From Blastocystis sp. Blastoise (taxonomy: Eukaryota > Sar > Bigyra > Opalinata > Blastocystidae), in contig JBBPEB010000003.1 of the NCBI GenBank assembly GCA_039096225.1, positions 490,001-554,000 of the forward strand: a stretch of DNA of 64,000 nt, given 5' to 3'. The notes beneath the pieces were generated by a model. The model made no database searches, was not told where the DNA came from, and saw only the letters and a list, made by a program, of their open reading frames with translations. Shown here in pieces: positions 1 to 55,903 of the stretch; position 1 is the stretch's first letter; each line of letters starts with the position of its first letter. The translations under genes and the position numbers were made by a program.

Positions 1-797
1 AAATCAATTGAATCATTATAACTATATTCATTAGAATCTAATGATGATTTAGATTCAAAAGAATAAGAATCAAAAGATTCAGAATGATTAGAAGAAGAAG
101 AAAAAGATTCACTAAAATCAGAATCATATAAATATAATATAGATGATTCATTTATTTTATCAATTATATCTATATAAATAATAATAATAATAATAAAAAT
201 AATAATAAACATACTTTTATTAATTAATTGATTTATATTATTTAAATATATAGAATTTATAATAAAATAATTATAAATACATTGAGAACAACATATATAT
301 TGAATATTATTAATATATATAGAAGATAAATGAAGAATATTATTATCTAAACAATGACAACAATTAATATCAATAAAATAATTATTTAATTTATAATTAT
401 ATTGATAATGTTTTTTATTACATATATGTTCTTCAATTGATTCATAATTATTATTATTATTTATTACTTTTGAATTTAAAATATATTTTTTACACTCTTT
501 ACAATATAAATATTTATAAGGTAAAGAAGAAATATATAATGAAGATTCTAATTTTATATTCATTATTTCATTATTATTAAACACTAAAGAAGAACTAAAA
601 GAACTAAAAGAACTAGAAGAACTAGAAGAACTAGAAGAAGAAACTGATGATTCTGATAAATTTGATTTTTTTGATATATATATATTATTATTATTTGTTT
701 CATTATATATACGTTTCATAGGAGTTTCTTTTGATAAATAATTCGAATTAATTTGTTTCGATGAAGAAATAATAGTAGGTTTATAACTTATAATCAT
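1..797 (-). CDS. UPF1-like protein, left inverted-repeat copy (5' part only)
   Basis: The start codon is the complement of 795-797 and the gene runs off the window at base 1. It is the second copy of the complete gene at 36708-40138. This copy covers the N-terminal Ser-rich leader, the Cys/His-rich region resembling the UPF1 CH domain, and the start of the Ser-rich linker. A 48-nt GT-AG intron (about 179-226) is retained as in the other copy; its length is a multiple of three, so unspliced it reads as a false hydrophobic segment. The two copies differ by substitutions (for example V/I and Q/H) and by small indels that keep frame in the Ser and Asn runs. This suggests that both copies were under coding constraint after duplication. 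See the right copy for the functional reasoning. Confidence 0.7.
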   Translation of the reverse strand, partial: MIISYKPTIISSSKQINSNYLSKETPMKRIYNETNNNNIYISKKSNLSESSVSSSSSSSSSSSFSSFSSSLVFNNNEIMNIKLESSLYISSLPYKYLYCKECKKYILNSKVINNNNNYESIEEHICNKKHYQYNYKLNNYFIDINCCHCLDNNILHLSSIYINNIQYICCSQCIYNYFIINSIYLNNINQLINKSMFIIIFIIIIIIYIDIIDKINESSILYLYDSDFSESFSSSSNHSESFDSYSFESKSSLDSNEYSYNDSID

Positions 798-1368
798 GTT
801 AATAGATTGATATATATATGATATTTAAGATGTATAAGAATATTTTTCTTTAAATAATAGAATTCATTTTAAAATAAGAATGAAAGATGAAAATAACTCT
901 CAAGAAAATAGTTTTCTTTTCTTAAATGATTGATTATTTGTTGGATTATAAATGAGATGAAATGATTTTTGTTGATGATTTGTATTCTATATTTGATTTC
1001 ATGTGAATTTAAAATGTAAAATGAATATAAATAAAATAATTTAATTTTAAAAATATTTTATATTATAAAAAAGTATAAAGAATTGAATAAATGAATAAAA
1101 TGATATATAATGTAAATAAAAATGAATAAATATAAAATTAAAAAAAAAAAGAATAGTTAGTAAGAAAGAAAATAAATAAATAAATAAATTTTTTGATTAT
1201 TTATAAATGTTTATAGAGAACAAGAGAAAATATAAAAAAAATACAAAAAAATATTTTTTGTGTCACGTTTTCATTTTTCTTCTTCTTCTTTTTTTATAAA
1301 TATATAATATATAATGAATGAATATATATTTCTATATGTTTAATAATAGATATATATTAATTTAATGA
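798..1368. promoter_or_regulatory. Divergent intergenic region, left copy
   Basis: These 571 bases separate the start codons of the UPF1-like gene (minus) and the membrane-protein gene (plus). They are very AT-rich with poly-A/T runs; one non-AT island, TGTCACGTTTTC, sits near 1260. The same spacer is conserved in the right arm (36140-36707), so the shared promoter was duplicated together with both genes. I see no ORF of note here. Confidence 0.55.
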
Positions 1369-4300
1369 ATGAATACAATGAGTAGAATGTTTGATGACAT
1401 TAGTCAAGTTGATAATTGTGTTGTGTTTCCTTTAGAAATTTCATCAAAAGATAATAAGAAGAATAAAGAATATATATGGAAGATTTTATTAGTGATATTA
1501 TCATGTATATTGATGTTATGTAGTACTTTATCTATGTGTCGAAAAATATGTGAAATAAGTATTAAAAAACCAAATATAATAGATGTAATGGATTCAATAC
1601 AAGTATATAGAATAGAATAGAATAGAATAGAATAGAATATATAGTTTTTAATAGAGAATACAAAGAAACAAAGTGATTCTTTTGAAGCTTGTATAAAGAC
1701 TTCAATACGAGTATTTATATAAATAAATATATATATATATATATATATAAAGAGATGTAATGATACAATGCATAAAGAAGCTATTGAAGAATCAAATCGT
1801 GTAAATGAAATATTTGAAAGAAATAATTCTTTATTGAAAGATTTAGATATTCAAGTACAATATTATAATAAAACGTATATATATATATAATAATAATTAT
1901 TATTATTATTATAATATAGAATAGAAATAATAAAAGAATATATATCAAAATATATAACATTAAATAAAGAAGGATATCCTTATGATATAAATTCAAAATG
2001 TAATATTAATGATATTAATGAATTAAACTATTTAATTGATCCTTCTTCTATAATAATGAGTTCTACTTATAATGTAATTGAAAATATTATTATTATTATT
2101 ATATATATATATATAGATAACAGTTGAATATGTTTCTCAGAATGAAATATTATTTAAAAAGATGATTGAATCTATGAATAAAAGGTATTTATTTATTTTA
2201 AAAGAATATTTTCTTTTTTTTATAAATTATATATATTATATATATATAGAATAGAATATGATTCTATATATTTTACAATGAAACAAAATCAATTATATTC
2301 AATAAATTCAACTTTTATAAATTTATTAGAAGATCATTTTAATCAATTATATAATTCTATAAAATGTATATAGAATATATATTAATATAATATATATATA
2401 GTATTAAATATAACTGAAATAAGTGAATGTATAACTATAAATGAGAAATGTTCTAATAATAATGGATTATATAGTATATTATATAATATAAAAGAATCTA
2501 TTAGAAATCAATGGGAAGATGCATCTTTAACTTATAAGTATATATATATATATTATTATTATTATGAATATAATAATAATAATAAAAATATATATATAGT
2601 CTTTTAGAAGATAGAATAGATAGTTATAAAATAAAAATAATATCTTTAATAGATAATATTCAATCCTTATATAATACAATTGATCGATTTCATGAAGATT
2701 TATTGAATGCAGGTATTGATTTAGGTCCACTTCCTTCTCTTTCTTTACCTTCTCTTTCAATTCCTATATTTCCACAAATACAATTACCTGGTATTTTATA
2801 TATAATAATAATTATATATATATATATATAGAATTATCAATAATATATTCAAGTTTAATACCTATATTAGAAGAAACACAAGAAATATATATTAATAGGA
2901 TAAATGAGTTTGAAGAGAAAACAAGATTATTTCTTTATGAATATAGTTCTTCTTTTTCTTCTATAATCGATTTCTTTGATGATTATTCTCCTCCTAATTT
3001 GAATAATACAATATTTGAAGAATTTCAAGAAGAATCGAAACAATATATAGAAAATACTTGGAATACAATGCAAAATATTTCAAATACTATTCAAACATCA
3101 ACGTATATTATAATATATTATTAATTAATTAATTAATTATTATATATAAATATAGTATAAAATTTGGAAATACAATACAATCTACATTTAATAGTGTATA
3201 TAATACATTATTAGAAACAATAATAACAAAATGGGATACTGAAGATTATGAAGGTATATATAAATAGTATAATAATAATAATAATAATATATATATAAAT
3301 AGGTCTTAGTTTTAATATTTCAGATATTTTATCAAATATAGATTCTATAATATCATTAGCTTGTTATATAGATATAATATATAGAATAATAAAGATAATT
3401 CAAGTATTTTAATAATATATATATATATATAATATTTTAGATAATAAATAAGATTTTAATAAAAGGAAATGTAAATATAAAAGTAATATCTTTATATAAT
3501 GAAAATATTTTAAATAAGATGAATGATTGTAATAATACTATATTAACAAAGATCTTAATGATTTTAATTCCTTATTCAATTCCTATTTTATTAATATTCA
3601 TTATTATGTATATAAATATATTTAAAATATTATAATATTTAATAAATGATAGTATATTGATATTATTTGGTTTAATAATGTTATATATTCCATTTTTGAA
3701 TGATTTCTTGAATGGTTGTGTGTATAATACAGTAGAAGGTGATTCAATAAGTCGTAATATTTATTCTTTCAGTTATAATTATGCAACTATAAAAGGAACA
3801 TTAGCAGAACAATCTGTATTTTTATTTATATTATTATTTTATTATTATTATTATTCTATAGGGTTTAACATATTATAAGAAGACTCAAAAACAATATTGT
3901 GATTATTGGGAATCTTTAACAGAAGAACAACATATTAAAGATATTCGTATATATTTTATTTTATAATAATAATAATAATAATAGAAATATATGATGAATA
4001 TATATATTGGTTATCTTATGATAAGCATTTAATTGAATCTCTTACTAATTGTACAAATATAAATATCTTATGTGAGTATATTATATATTATATAATAATA
4101 ATTAAATATATATTTTTAATAGAAATGATATTTCATTTTGTAATTATATGAGAAATATTTCTTCTTCTTCTTCTTCTTTTATTTTATCTTCATCTTCATT
4201 ATCATCTCTATCTCTTAATAATAATAATATACATAATTGTTCTAAAATTCCTTCTTGTAATCTTCAATGTGAAGGACCTAATAAACATCCTTTATATACG

Positions 4301-4539
4301 TATATATATTTATTATATATTTATTATATATTTATTATATATATTTATTATATATACTATATCTAAAGAAACAACATGTAAAAGTGAATGGTTTCTTCAT
4401 TCTTATATATTATTATATTCAATGTCTCTTCTTATTTGGTTAATTATCAATATATCAAGATATTTCTATATCGAATCATTCAAATGTTTCTTCTATAAAC
4501 AATTATCTGGAAATCTATTCATGTATTTATATATATTTA

Positions 4540-4571
<32 letters not shown>

Positions 4572-4776
4572 CTAATATAGCTGTGAAATACCAATTAATT
4601 CTAATGGAGAAATAATTTGGAATAAAGATAAAAATATATTAAATGATATCAATAACAATATTCATTCTTCTTCTTATTCATATATTCTCAAATCTATATT
4701 CTTTTTCCAAATCGCCACTCTCATTCATCTTCTATGGATCTATCCATTATTCTCTATCTCTAAAATCATACAATAA
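1369..4776 (+). CDS. Multi-pass membrane protein, left copy
   Basis: This gene has about 17 exons separated by short GTAT...AG introns, and I estimate about 850-900 residues. ATG 1369 is chosen because the ATG at 1365 hits an in-frame TAG at once. The stop is TAA at 4774-4776, in the frame ending FSISKIIQ. Visible features: a hydrophobic segment near residues 38-58; a long, probably extracellular region of about 500 residues with Asn/Ser/Thr sequons and helical, coiled-coil-like stretches; a pair of hydrophobic segments (around 3550-3710); a Cys-bearing second loop; and two more hydrophobic segments near the C-terminus. Several membrane spans with two large loops recall the topology of prominin or tweety proteins, but I recognise no diagnostic motif, so no family is assigned. 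It is divergently transcribed from the UPF1-like gene, and a second copy lies at 32733-36139. Confidence 0.72.
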
Positions 4777-5402
4777 TTCTTATTTTTATTTTTTTTTTAT
4801 GGATAACACTTCATTAATTGCTATTTTCAATTTATATTATATTCTAAACTATATCCTATATAAAATCAAATCATACACATTTATTATACACATCAAAAGT
4901 ATCATTTTATATCTATTTTACACATTATCATATATATCTCTATTTCTAAACTTCACACACTTTTGTTACTCATTTATTATTTACATCTCCAATATCCATA
5001 AAAAACAAATCTGTTGAAAAATATATATAACATGATTACTTTCTCATTTGCTGATCCATAAATTCATTTGATCCATCCTATCGAATCGTTTATTCTTTAA
5101 TTCTCACATCTCTTTAAAAGCAACAAAATATTTAAACGCTCACAATAAACATAAAGAAAACAGTCATTGAGAAAGATGCGTCATAAAAAAAGACGTAGTA
5201 TGGAGATGTTTTGTTTGTAAGGCAGTTCAAAACAAATAATCGTGATTATTTGATATGTATGAGGGAGGTAAATCAGAAGTTTCTATGTTTGGTTATTAGT
5301 GTAGAGGATTTAATAATTACAATATATCCTATAAAAACAAGCATTGACCAAATTAGGCTTCTTGAATAATCTAATTAAATCCCGTTTTAACAAAAAAGCA
5401 AA
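4777..5402. other. Inverted-repeat inner junction and bZIP upstream region
   Basis: Repeat identity to the right arm continues about 220 bases past the membrane-protein stop and ends at about 4995-5003. The remaining ~400 bases lead to the bZIP ATG and are less AT-rich than typical spacers here. They include two ACGT-type bZIP-like sites (5176-5198). No gene is visible. Confidence 0.7.
5176..5198. promoter_or_regulatory. Pair of bZIP-type binding-site candidates
   Basis: ATGCGTCAT (5176-5184) contains an ATF/AP-1-like TGCGTCA core, and GACGTAG (5192-5198) contains an ACGT core. They lie about 205-225 bases upstream of the start codon of a bZIP gene. Autoregulation is an inference from position only. 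Confidence 0.3.
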
Positions 5403-36707: not shown

Positions 36708-38160
36708 ATGATTATAAGTTATAAACCTACTATTATTTCTTCATCGAAACAAATTAATTCGAATTATTTATCAAAAGAAACTCCTATGAAACGTATATAT
36801 AATGAAACAAATAATAATAATATATATATATCAAAAAAATCAAATTTATCAGAATCATCAGTTTCTTCTTCTAGTTCTTCTAGTTCTTCTAGTTCTTTTA
36901 GTTCTTCTTTAGTGTTTAATAATAATGAAATAATGAATATAAAATTAGAATCTTCATTATATATTTCTTCTTTACCTTATAAATATTTATATTGTAAAGA
37001 GTGTAAAAAATATATTTTAAATTCAAAAATAATAAATAATAATTATTATGAATCAATTGAAGAACATATATGTAATAAAAAACATTATCAATATAATTAT
37101 AAATTAAATAATTATTTTATTGATATTAATTGTTGTCATTGTTTAGATAATAATATTCTTCATTTATCTTCTATATATATTAATAATATTCAATATATAT
37201 GTTGTTCTCAATGTATTTATAATTATTTTATTAGAAATTCTATATATTTAAATAATATAAATCAATTAATTAATAAAAGTATGTTTATTATTATTTTTAT
37301 TATTATTATTTTTATTATTTATATAGATATAATTGATAAAATAAATGAATCATCTATATTATATTTATATGATTCTGATTTTAGTGAATCTTCTTCTTCT
37401 TCTTCTTCTAATCAATCTGAATCTTTTGATTCTTATTCTTTTGAATCTAAATCATCATTAGATTCTAATGAATATAGTTATAATGATTCAATTGATTTAA
37501 GTGAATCTATTAATTCTTCTTTATCTTCTAATATTTTTGATTTAAGTGAATCTATTAATTCTTCTTCTTCTTCTTCTAATCAATCTGTATCTAGATCTGA
37601 ATCATTTTCTTCTTCATCTTCATCTTCTTCATCTTCATCATCTTCATCTTCATCATCTTCTTCATCTTCATCTTCATCTTCTTCATATAATAATAATAAT
37701 AATGTTAATAATGTTAATAATAATGTGTTTAATAATAATATTAATAATAATGCTAATAATAATAATATTAATAATAATATTAATAATAATAATGTTAATA
37801 ATGTTAATAATAATGTGTTTAATAATAATAATAATAATAATATATATTTTCCTTTGCTTCTAAATAATATAAATAATTCATTATCTCCTTTATCTTCTTC
37901 TCCTTCTCTTCTTTCTCCTATACAATCAAATCATTTATTATCTTCATCACAATCATCCTCATTACCTCCTTCTCTTCCTCCTCCTTCTTTTTCATCATCT
38001 TCATCATCATCTTCTTCTTCTTCATCATCTTCTTCTTCTTCATCATCATCTCCTTCTTTTTCATCTTCTTCTCCTTCTTTTCCTTCTTCTCCTTCATCAT
38101 CTTCATCTTATTTATCACTTTCTCCTCCTCCTATTTCTCCTCCTCTTTCTCCTTCTTCAT

Positions 38161-38256
<96 letters not shown>

Positions 38257-39054
38257 TCTCAGATAATAATAATAATATTAATAATAATAATAATAATAAT
38301 ATCTCAGATAATAATAATAATATCTCAGATAATAATAATATATCATTATTTTCATTTCAACAAAACGAATTATTTTCAATAAATCATTCATTACAATCAA
38401 ATATTTCTTCTTCAATAAATCCTATTCTTCCTTTATATATTGATAAACAATATATAAAACGATTATGGAGTCAAACATTATTAGATCCATTTTGTAATAA
38501 TAATAATAAAGAACAATATATATTAAAAAATCAATGTATTTCTATTTCAAAAGAAACTACTTATATATATCATCTTAATTGTACATCTATTATTTCTAAT
38601 AAATTTAAAATAGGAGATTTATCATATATAGAATTAAATAATAATAAATGTAAAGTAATGGTATATGCAATAGGAGATAATTATATTGAATTTGAAGGTG
38701 ATTGTACATTTATTTCATTTCTTAAACCATTAAATGGATCAAAATGTATATATATATATATATATTAATTAATTTATTAAATAAAATTATATTATTATTA
38801 TATAGTAGGAAGAATAGAATATGAAAAAATAAATAATATAACAATTATATTACAAAAATCAAATTATATATTAAATTTATATATTGATTCAATTCATAAA
38901 TTTGAAGATTTTAATAATTTTCAAAAGAATCCATTTTTATATTATTTTTCTTCTCTTTCTTCTCTTCCTTCTATTTCTTATGATTTTATTCCAGAAAGAT
39001 TTATAACAAAATGGGGATATCCTAATACTATAAATAATTCTAATCAAATTAATA

Positions 39055-39102
<48 letters not shown>

Positions 39103-40138
39103 ATAATTATTATAATTATATAGAATATTTTTATTGATAATATGTTAAAGAAAACAATATCAATTCATAAAGTAGATTATTCTTATCAAAATGGTATATA
39201 ATAATAATAATAAAATAATAATAATAAACATATTTTTTTTTATAGATTGTTTAATAACATTAATAGAAAAATTATCAATATTAAAAAGTGATTCTAAAAT
39301 ATTAATTTGTTTTAATAGTAATAATATGTGTAATAAATTTACTATACAATGTAATAATAAGAATATTCCTGTAATTCGATATATATCCTATACAAAAAGA
39401 AATTCAGAACAATATATTATGAATAAAGATTTAAATCAATATATGTCTCATTCATTAGCATTTAATTCACTTCTTCAAGATATTTTTGTATATATATATA
39501 TAATAATAATAATAATATTTAATAATAATATATTTATATAGAAAAAATCCAATATAACAATAGAAAATGTAGAATATTATATAGATAATATATGTAATTT
39601 ATATAATTTAAATAATTATAAAAAAGATTTATTACAATTATTAAATTATTATTTTAAAGAAGAATCTTCTTTATGTTCTGAATATATAAATATACATTCT
39701 TCATCAATATTTTCTTTATTATGTAATCCTATATTTCATTTAAATAAAGAAGATATTAATCGAATTGTATATATTGATAAAGATTCAAATCATTTATTTA
39801 CTTATTTATATATACTTATTGAAAAATATAAAAATTATTTACTTTCAAATTATTCAGATAAATATATAAAGAAAGAAAGAGAAATATTAAATAATAATTC
39901 TATTCTATGTACTACATTTTATGGTTCTTCTAGTTTACCTGATAATTCAAAATATGATATTGTAATTCTATATGATGTTCAATATTGCTATGAAATAGAA
40001 ACTACATTACCTATTCATTATAATTGTAAACAATTATTTGTTTTTTATTGTGATGATATATTTACAAAAAGAATATGTAAAGTACCTTTTGAAGATACTT
40101 TAGCATATCGATTAATAAATAGTATTGGAAATATATAA
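36708..40138 (+). CDS. UPF1-like protein with degenerate, truncated helicase (complete copy)
   Basis: Six exons; introns include 37279-37326 and TA-rich introns near 38748, 39058, 39194 and 39488; stop TAA 40136-40138. Residues 96-169 hold ordered Cys/His (C96, C99, H120, C122, H126, C142, C143, C145, C165, C166, C169) in the order of the UPF1 CH domain. A huge Ser then Asn tract (37600-38340) is inserted next. After it, IKRLWSQTLLDPF and a 1B-like stretch lead to FIPERFITKWGYPN (UPF1: LPKRFTAQGLPDLN), KILICFNSNN (UPF1: PVLVCAPSN), REILNNNSILCTTFYGSSSL, and KQLFVFYCDDIF (UPF1: KQLILVGDHCQL). The Walker A segment is replaced by non-P-loop sequence, the DEST box by YDVQ, and RecA2 is absent. 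It should therefore lack ATPase and helicase activity. Orthology is by motif order read by eye. Confidence 0.68.
37600..38345 (+). repeat. Ser and Asn homopolymer-coding tract
   Basis: Trinucleotide repeats (TCT/TCA mixtures, then AAT) encode long Ser, Asn and Ser/Pro runs inside the UPF1-like gene. The purest part, 38161-38257, is about 32 consecutive AAT codons. Two blocks near 37705 and 37795 are a near-identical direct repeat around VNNVNNNVFNNN. Confidence 0.9.
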
Positions 40139-40296: not shown

Positions 40297-40368
40297 GGCC
40301 TGCTGGTCTAGTGGTATGATTCTCGCTTAGGGTGCGAGAGGTCCCGGGTTCGATTCCCGGGTAGGCCC
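40297..40368 (+). tRNA. tRNA-Pro(AGG)
   Basis: 72 bases, no intron. The acceptor GGCCTGC (40297-40303) pairs with GTAGGCC (40361-40367) with one G-T pair; the discriminator is C. The anticodon stem CTCGC/GCGAG encloses loop TTAGGGT with anticodon AGG. The T stem CCGGG/CCCGG has loop TTCGATT. It is the strongest GC island in the region. A-box (TGGTCTAGTGG) and B-box (GGTTCGATTCC) promoters are intact. Confidence 0.98.

Positions 40369-40532: not shown

Positions 40533-55903
<15,371 letters not shown>

Follow-up and report, generated by a model that had tools for sequence, protein, structure and literature searches.

A six-exon gene of the gut protist Blastocystis sp. Blastoise encodes a shortened and, judging from its sequence, apparently catalytically dead offshoot of UPF1, the central helicase of nonsense-mediated mRNA decay. 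The gene lies in a stretch of 64,000 nucleotides (the window, C33:490001-554000 in contig coordinates), and its product of 1,050 aa consists of a Cys/His region, a linker of about 330 aa rich in S, N and P, and a RecA1 segment, in that order. The original prediction described an intact gene, and its coordinates are exact: the frame is open from ATG to TAA over all six exons (Table 1). The five introns (48, 60, 64, 52 and 54 nt) all have GT...AG ends, and the spliced core (residues 540-1050) contains no internal stop, where each of 1,000 base shuffles contained at least 33 (mean 52). Since intron 1 stays open in frame, its removal is presumed; its retention would add 16 residues, mostly hydrophobic, and in the second copy of the gene it is 45 nt long.

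Table 1. Features in and around the UPF1-derived gene, in window positions.
Feature	Position	Strand	Description
Copy 2, 5' part	1-797	-	Corresponds to codons 1-247 of copy 1
Duplication arm, part	1-5002	-	Continues to the left of the window
Other duplication arm	32507-56027	+	Pieces at 95-97%; contains the window gene and the Tra1/TRRAP-like gene
Window gene (copy 1)	36708-40138	+	ATG at 36708, TAA ending at 40138
Exon 1	36708-37278	+	S/N-rich N-terminal tail and CH-like Cys/His region (residues about 92-170), the latter from trimmed profile match, ligand columns, alignment, and a model guided by UPF1 relatives with its fold matches
Intron 1	37279-37326	+	48 nt, 6.2% GC; ends GTATGT...ATAG
Exon 2	37327-38745	+	S/N/P-rich linker (about 330 aa), followed by the beginning of the stalk/1B position (alignment)
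Intron 2	38746-38805	+	
Exon 3	38806-39059	+	Domain 1B position and lead into RecA1, by alignment position only
Intron 3	39060-39123	+	Phase 0; at most one residue from the first intron of the C25 UPF1, likewise phase 0
Exon 4	39124-39193	+	70 nt (canonical UPF1: 73 nt); former Walker A site
Intron 4	39194-39245	+	Phase 1; at most one residue from the Walker A intron of the C25 UPF1, likewise phase 1
Exon 5	39246-39487	+	Motif Ia region, ILICFNSN where UPF1 has ILVCAPSN
Intron 5	39488-39541	+	Phase 0
Exon 6	39542-40138	+	Second half of RecA1, YDVQ at motif II DEAT; protein and RecA1 end together
tRNA-Pro (AGG)	40297-40368		Starts 158 bases 3' of the stop codon of the window gene
Tra1/TRRAP-like gene	40759-about 54000	-	Extent guessed from ORFs

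Sequence comparison establishes the relation of the RecA1 part to UPF1. Domain profiles built from UPF1 were searched against 611 ORFs of at least 60 aa from the six frames of the window and of 20 of 32 loci (the other 12 are further cuts around the UPF1 genes and the window gene); the set also included the trimmed CH region and the spliced core. With the RecA1 profile, E is 2.1e-8 for the spliced core, 8.4e-6 for exon 6 by itself and 0.002 for the open frame 39176-39538, in which exon 5 lies. The CH profile matches the trimmed region at E 0.003 and the copy 2 frame at 0.019, next below three true UPF1s; the 14 matches listed do not include the copy 1 frame in its untrimmed form, which is of low complexity. 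The matches to CH, the exon 5 frame and exon 6 follow the domain order of UPF1. A 1B-like stretch had also been claimed between the CH-like and RecA1-like parts. Its supposed place in the MAFFT alignment is the right one, but the 14 matches listed for the 1B profile do not include the window gene.

Other comparisons agree for the core and are less clear for the N-terminus. Pfam AAA_11 matches the gene product at E 8.1e-6 with 26.2 bits, slightly below its cut-off of 27, and Pfam yields no UPF1 match on the N-terminal part of the product. Genome-wide searches of the 33.3-Mb, 34-contig assembly with PF09416 (3 matches) and PF13086 (18 matches) do not include the window gene. In hhalign the core scores 48.7, against at most 23.8 over 60 shuffles and 17.5 for the reversed sequence; the CH region scores 22.4, with 2 of 60 shuffles above it. 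From sequence alone, the CH assignment is weak. Exon 6 is 31% identical to the canonical UPF1 gene of the same genome (on contig C25), 25% and 21% to two further UPF1 paralogs (C29 and C31, respectively), and 24-29% to 25 other UPF1s. In a database of 5.8 billion proteins, from which 7,989 candidates were scored, residues 540-1050 have no homolog at E <= 0.01; since the C31 UPF1 missed itself in the same way, this null result is no proof that the gene is unannotated.

The introns point to the source of the gene. In an alignment made with MAFFT (--add), which is blind to introns, introns 3 and 4 lie a single residue away from introns 1 and 2 of the C25 UPF1, respectively, with equal phases. When four introns were placed at random (200,000 draws), two or more such coincidences arose at a frequency of 1.5e-4 with a tolerance of one residue, and of 2.7e-4 and 7e-4 with tolerances of two and three residues. 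The third C25 intron and intron 5 of the window gene are both of phase 0, and both fall within a region where no alignment is possible. The second aligner, hmmalign, placed part of exon 6 only, and the intron positions are not confirmed by it. An intron right at Walker A is found in the C25 gene alone among the SF1 genes compared: it is absent from those on C4, C7 and C8, and the intron of the C24 gene lies about 15 residues further on, while in the SF1 gene at C29:852k the P-loop (Walker A) exon was not seen. Because two intron positions and phases are shared, and no intron right at Walker A was seen in the other SF1 genes compared, the intron-bearing canonical UPF1 is the likeliest source; the ranking of exon 6 identities (C25 above C29 and C31) agrees. 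Aligned in this way, the window gene shares descent with the local canonical UPF1. The predicted derivation from UPF1 is thus borne out by the RecA1 and CH profile matches, the hhalign score of the core and the intron positions, and the similarity sought by profile comparison is real.

What has been lost is the motor. At the canonical GPPGTGKT (Walker A) column, the window gene reads DYSYQNDC in MAFFT, or KVDYSYQN once the introns are aligned exactly. At motif II, where the local canonical UPF1 reads DEAT, hhalign and MAFFT both place YDVQ, and the CAPSN of motif Ia has become CFNSN. The chain stops after RecA1: its C-terminus, LAYRLINSIGNI, aligns to LFERLQITGIK, the end of RecA1 in UPF1, and none of the 15 genome matches to RecA2 (AAA_12) is on contig C33, part of which reads N near the window. 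The loss of Walker A, the replacement of motif II by YDVQ and the lack of RecA2 (from the AAA_12 search and the end of the alignment) had all been predicted and are all confirmed. The description of the protein as a CH domain only is not, since the RecA1 scaffold is kept. Such a product would be unable to bind or hydrolyse ATP.

The Cys/His region has been reduced as well. Its columns are numbered after human UPF1, anchored on P0005. The ligands of the first zinc site are all gone (Zn1, 0/4, columns C123, C126, C145 and H155), and those of the other two are all present (Zn2, 4/4, C137, 140, H159 and 165; Zn3, 4/4, C183, C186, C209 and C213). Eight of twelve ligands are therefore kept, and the four that are lost make up one whole site, which points to structural constraint. 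The Zn1 columns, like those of Zn3, are invariant across 28/28 UPF1 rows. The division of the ligands among Zn1, Zn2 and Zn3 is in part presumed, by analogy with the zinc-site pattern of nsp13 given in passages of PMC5501694. What remains of the region is CH-like and carries ligands for two zinc sites, not three.

One reading of this remnant is that the protein has left mRNA decay altogether and is now a structural protein with a zinc-ribbon-like N-terminus, derived from UPF1 by history alone. Against the PDB, the CH region by itself has no UPF1 chain among its matches and finds ribosomal protein eS27 best (E 0.015); the long S/N-rich linker, and some 90 aa more than in the C25 gene between the last intron and motif II, would suit such a protein. 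The spacing of the Zn2 and Zn3 ligands is nevertheless that of the UPF1 CH domain, and in the CH profile search of 611 ORFs the trimmed region ranks straight after the three real UPF1s, which makes this reading improbable.

The original prediction had proposed a decoy that could bind UPF2 or other UPF1 partners and modulate nonsense-mediated decay (NMD). As a UPF2 decoy, its CH domain would compete with UPF1 for UPF2 and dampen NMD. The CH-like region with its Zn2 and Zn3 ligands and the presence of a UPF2 gene in the genome speak for it. In UPF1 the CH domain docks onto RecA2, by which the enzyme is inhibited, as described in part of PMC12305709, and in a protein that lacks RecA2, and with it this docking site, CH would be free. 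The binding pocket speaks against it. According to portions of PMC4749658, mutation of Y184 together with E182 in human UPF1 abolishes UPF2 binding, as does mutation of V204 together with V206; the same portions list which residues of U. maydis UPF1 touch UPF2, with human counterparts for some of them, and the remaining U. maydis contacts were converted to human numbering by an offset of 8. None of the eight pocket positions so defined, both pairs included, is kept in the window gene (L176 to F, E182 to N, Y184 to C, F196 to S, V204 to a gap, V206 to Q, V161 to C and F192 to L), a count that excludes two more named contacts outside the aligned exon. The canonical UPF1 of Blastoise keeps five of the eight, with S at 196, A at 204 and A at 206, and because it has already changed at these positions the UPF2 interface of this organism may differ from the human one. 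The decoy is possible in principle, but it is not favoured and finds no support in the pocket; we consider it very unlikely.

Three UPF1 genes with intact motifs lie elsewhere in the genome. A complete canonical UPF1, 100% identical to WA158_006482, is present on C25, and this is accompanied by two single-exon paralogs, one of 896 aa on C29 (L014:2246-4954) and one of 873 aa on C31 (L015:2559-5186). Both have GPPGTGKT and DEAAQ intact and RecA2 present; of the 120 hits listed for the C31 protein, the most identical reaches 43%, over 56% of that protein. A likely UPF2 gene (L029:2697-4766, within C31:840501-850400) is recognised by its MIF4G domains and by PDB matches to UPF2, the best at 1.8e-15, although Pfam does not recognise the C-terminal part supposed to bind UPF1. 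Pfam searches with PF04050 and PF03467 (UPF2/UPF3), run without a positive control, gave zero matches; UPF3 was thus not found, which does not show that it is absent. The presence of UPF2, a core NMD factor, makes an NMD context plausible.

These genes also bear on whether the window gene might be a misassembled or partial piece of a true UPF1. It does sit in an arm of about 23.6 kb of an inverted duplication, a setting in which assembly is prone to error. However, there is a complete UPF1 on C25, and since exon 6 shares just 31% identity with it the two are different sequences; the second arm also carries the 5' part of the gene. Given this complete UPF1 and the real similarity to UPF1, both conditions named as refuting the original prediction fail. 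With the complete UPF1, two intact paralogs and UPF2 all in the genome, the window gene is no misassembled fragment, and an explanation of that kind, already refuted by the divergence, is hardly credible.

The duplication itself is extensive. Window positions 1-5002 are the reverse complement of 37498-32507 at 97.3% identity, and beyond the window C33:471258-495002 corresponds to 546027-522507 in six pieces at 95-97%. Between the arms lies a spacer of about 27.5 kb; the left arm is unreadable in part, and both arms contain at least parts of the window gene and of a Tra1/TRRAP-like gene. The inverted duplication may be real or may be an assembly artefact. The gene had been described as duplicated with its frame kept; this holds for the first 247 codons of copy 2, and the comparison covers that part of it. 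Over these 247 readable codons, the two copies have five non-synonymous and no synonymous differences. The exonic indels between them are of 9, 3 and 3 nt, all in or beside trinucleotide runs, and the two exon parts diverge by 0.53% and 1.18%, the flanks by 0.8-0.9%.

Such figures raise the possibility that the gene is a decaying or drifting relic, a UPF1 copy without function whose frame is still open through past or partial constraint. The five non-synonymous and zero synonymous differences, a count compatible with no selection, favour it, as do the exon divergence near flank level and the lack of relatives among the 7,989 database candidates. So does the very low GC3: the core has 2.7% GC at the third codon position, at or under the GC of the introns and below that of all nine coding stretches compared (7.6-24.6%), which may indicate that the gene is weakly expressed. 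The same numbers cut the other way when the codon positions are set against each other. GC in the core is 0.242, 0.240 and 0.027 at positions 1, 2 and 3, and 0.03-0.06 in the introns, and the contrast of 2.7% with 24% points to long-term coding constraint in the past. Although exon 6 has diverged to only 31% identity with the C25 gene, 1,050 codons in six exons have stayed open with canonical splice ends, and the zinc ligands have gone as one entire site. Present selection is unproven because of the five non-synonymous differences against none that are synonymous. On balance, a relic is a serious possibility, though on the unlikely side.

The explanation that we tentatively prefer, at somewhat less than even chances, is that the gene arose long ago as a paralog of the intron-containing canonical UPF1 and that its product, if it has any function, is an adaptor without enzymatic activity in mRNA decay or translation termination. 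The paralog has lost Walker A, motif II, RecA2 and the ligands of one of the three CH zinc sites, and it has an S/N-rich linker that is absent from the canonical gene. Because the RecA2 docking surface is missing, the two-zinc CH remnant would be permanently free. On its RecA1 scaffold the adaptor might then hold either a protein that binds CH, though not UPF2, or one that partners the UPF1 core. A more specific proposal, which we think unlikely, is that this pseudo-helicase of UPF1 origin has been retained to regulate mRNA decay: its motor gone and its CH domain released from autoinhibition, it would keep hold of NMD or termination factors without spending ATP. If so, it would be a non-enzymatic counterweight to the three motif-intact UPF1-type helicases of the same cell.

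Most often UPF1 exists as one gene, and its ATPase is regarded as its essence. A lineage with one canonical UPF1, two motif-intact single-exon paralogs and a motor-less offshoot would make it possible to test which UPF1 functions need no ATP. With the canonical gene (RENT1/NAM7, WA158_006482) the offshoot shares the domain order, two intron positions and phases, the RecA1 part in exons 5 and 6, and the Zn2 and Zn3 ligands; it differs in lacking Walker A, DEAT, RecA2 and the Zn1 ligands, and in having the linker of about 330 aa and two further introns. The single-exon genes on C29 and C31 belong to the same family and have the CH domain, but they are intronless, with intact motifs and RecA2, and they resemble the window gene less in exon 6. 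Outside the UPF1 family, Utp25p of the SSU processome is also helicase-like and is described as a pseudohelicase in part of PMC9539457; it is a different protein in a different process, and a relation to UPF1 is not claimed in that part of the source. In the nidovirus helicases nsp13 and nsp10, a zinc-binding domain, 1B and RecA follow one another as in UPF1, but according to passages of PMC5501694 they are active ATPases with three zinc sites and RecA2, and are brought in for comparison only. In the literature searched, with subscription papers mostly outside it, nothing was found on Blastocystis UPF1, on Blastoise or on UPF1 paralogs in NMD, and the sole match for Blastocystis with nonsense-mediated decay concerns, in the part of the text available, poly(A) sites.

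Two neighbours lie downstream of the window gene. The nearer is a gene for tRNA-Pro (AGG); tRNA is all that Rfam reports at its gathering thresholds. The second is the large Tra1/TRRAP-like gene on the opposite strand. The ORF that follows in this gene has no Pfam match and no convincing PDB match, while its ORF 42546-43808 contains a FAT domain. SMG1 was considered as the identity of this large neighbour and ruled out, since the FAT region matches Tra1/TRRAP, with a PDB match to Tra1 at E 6.8e-23.
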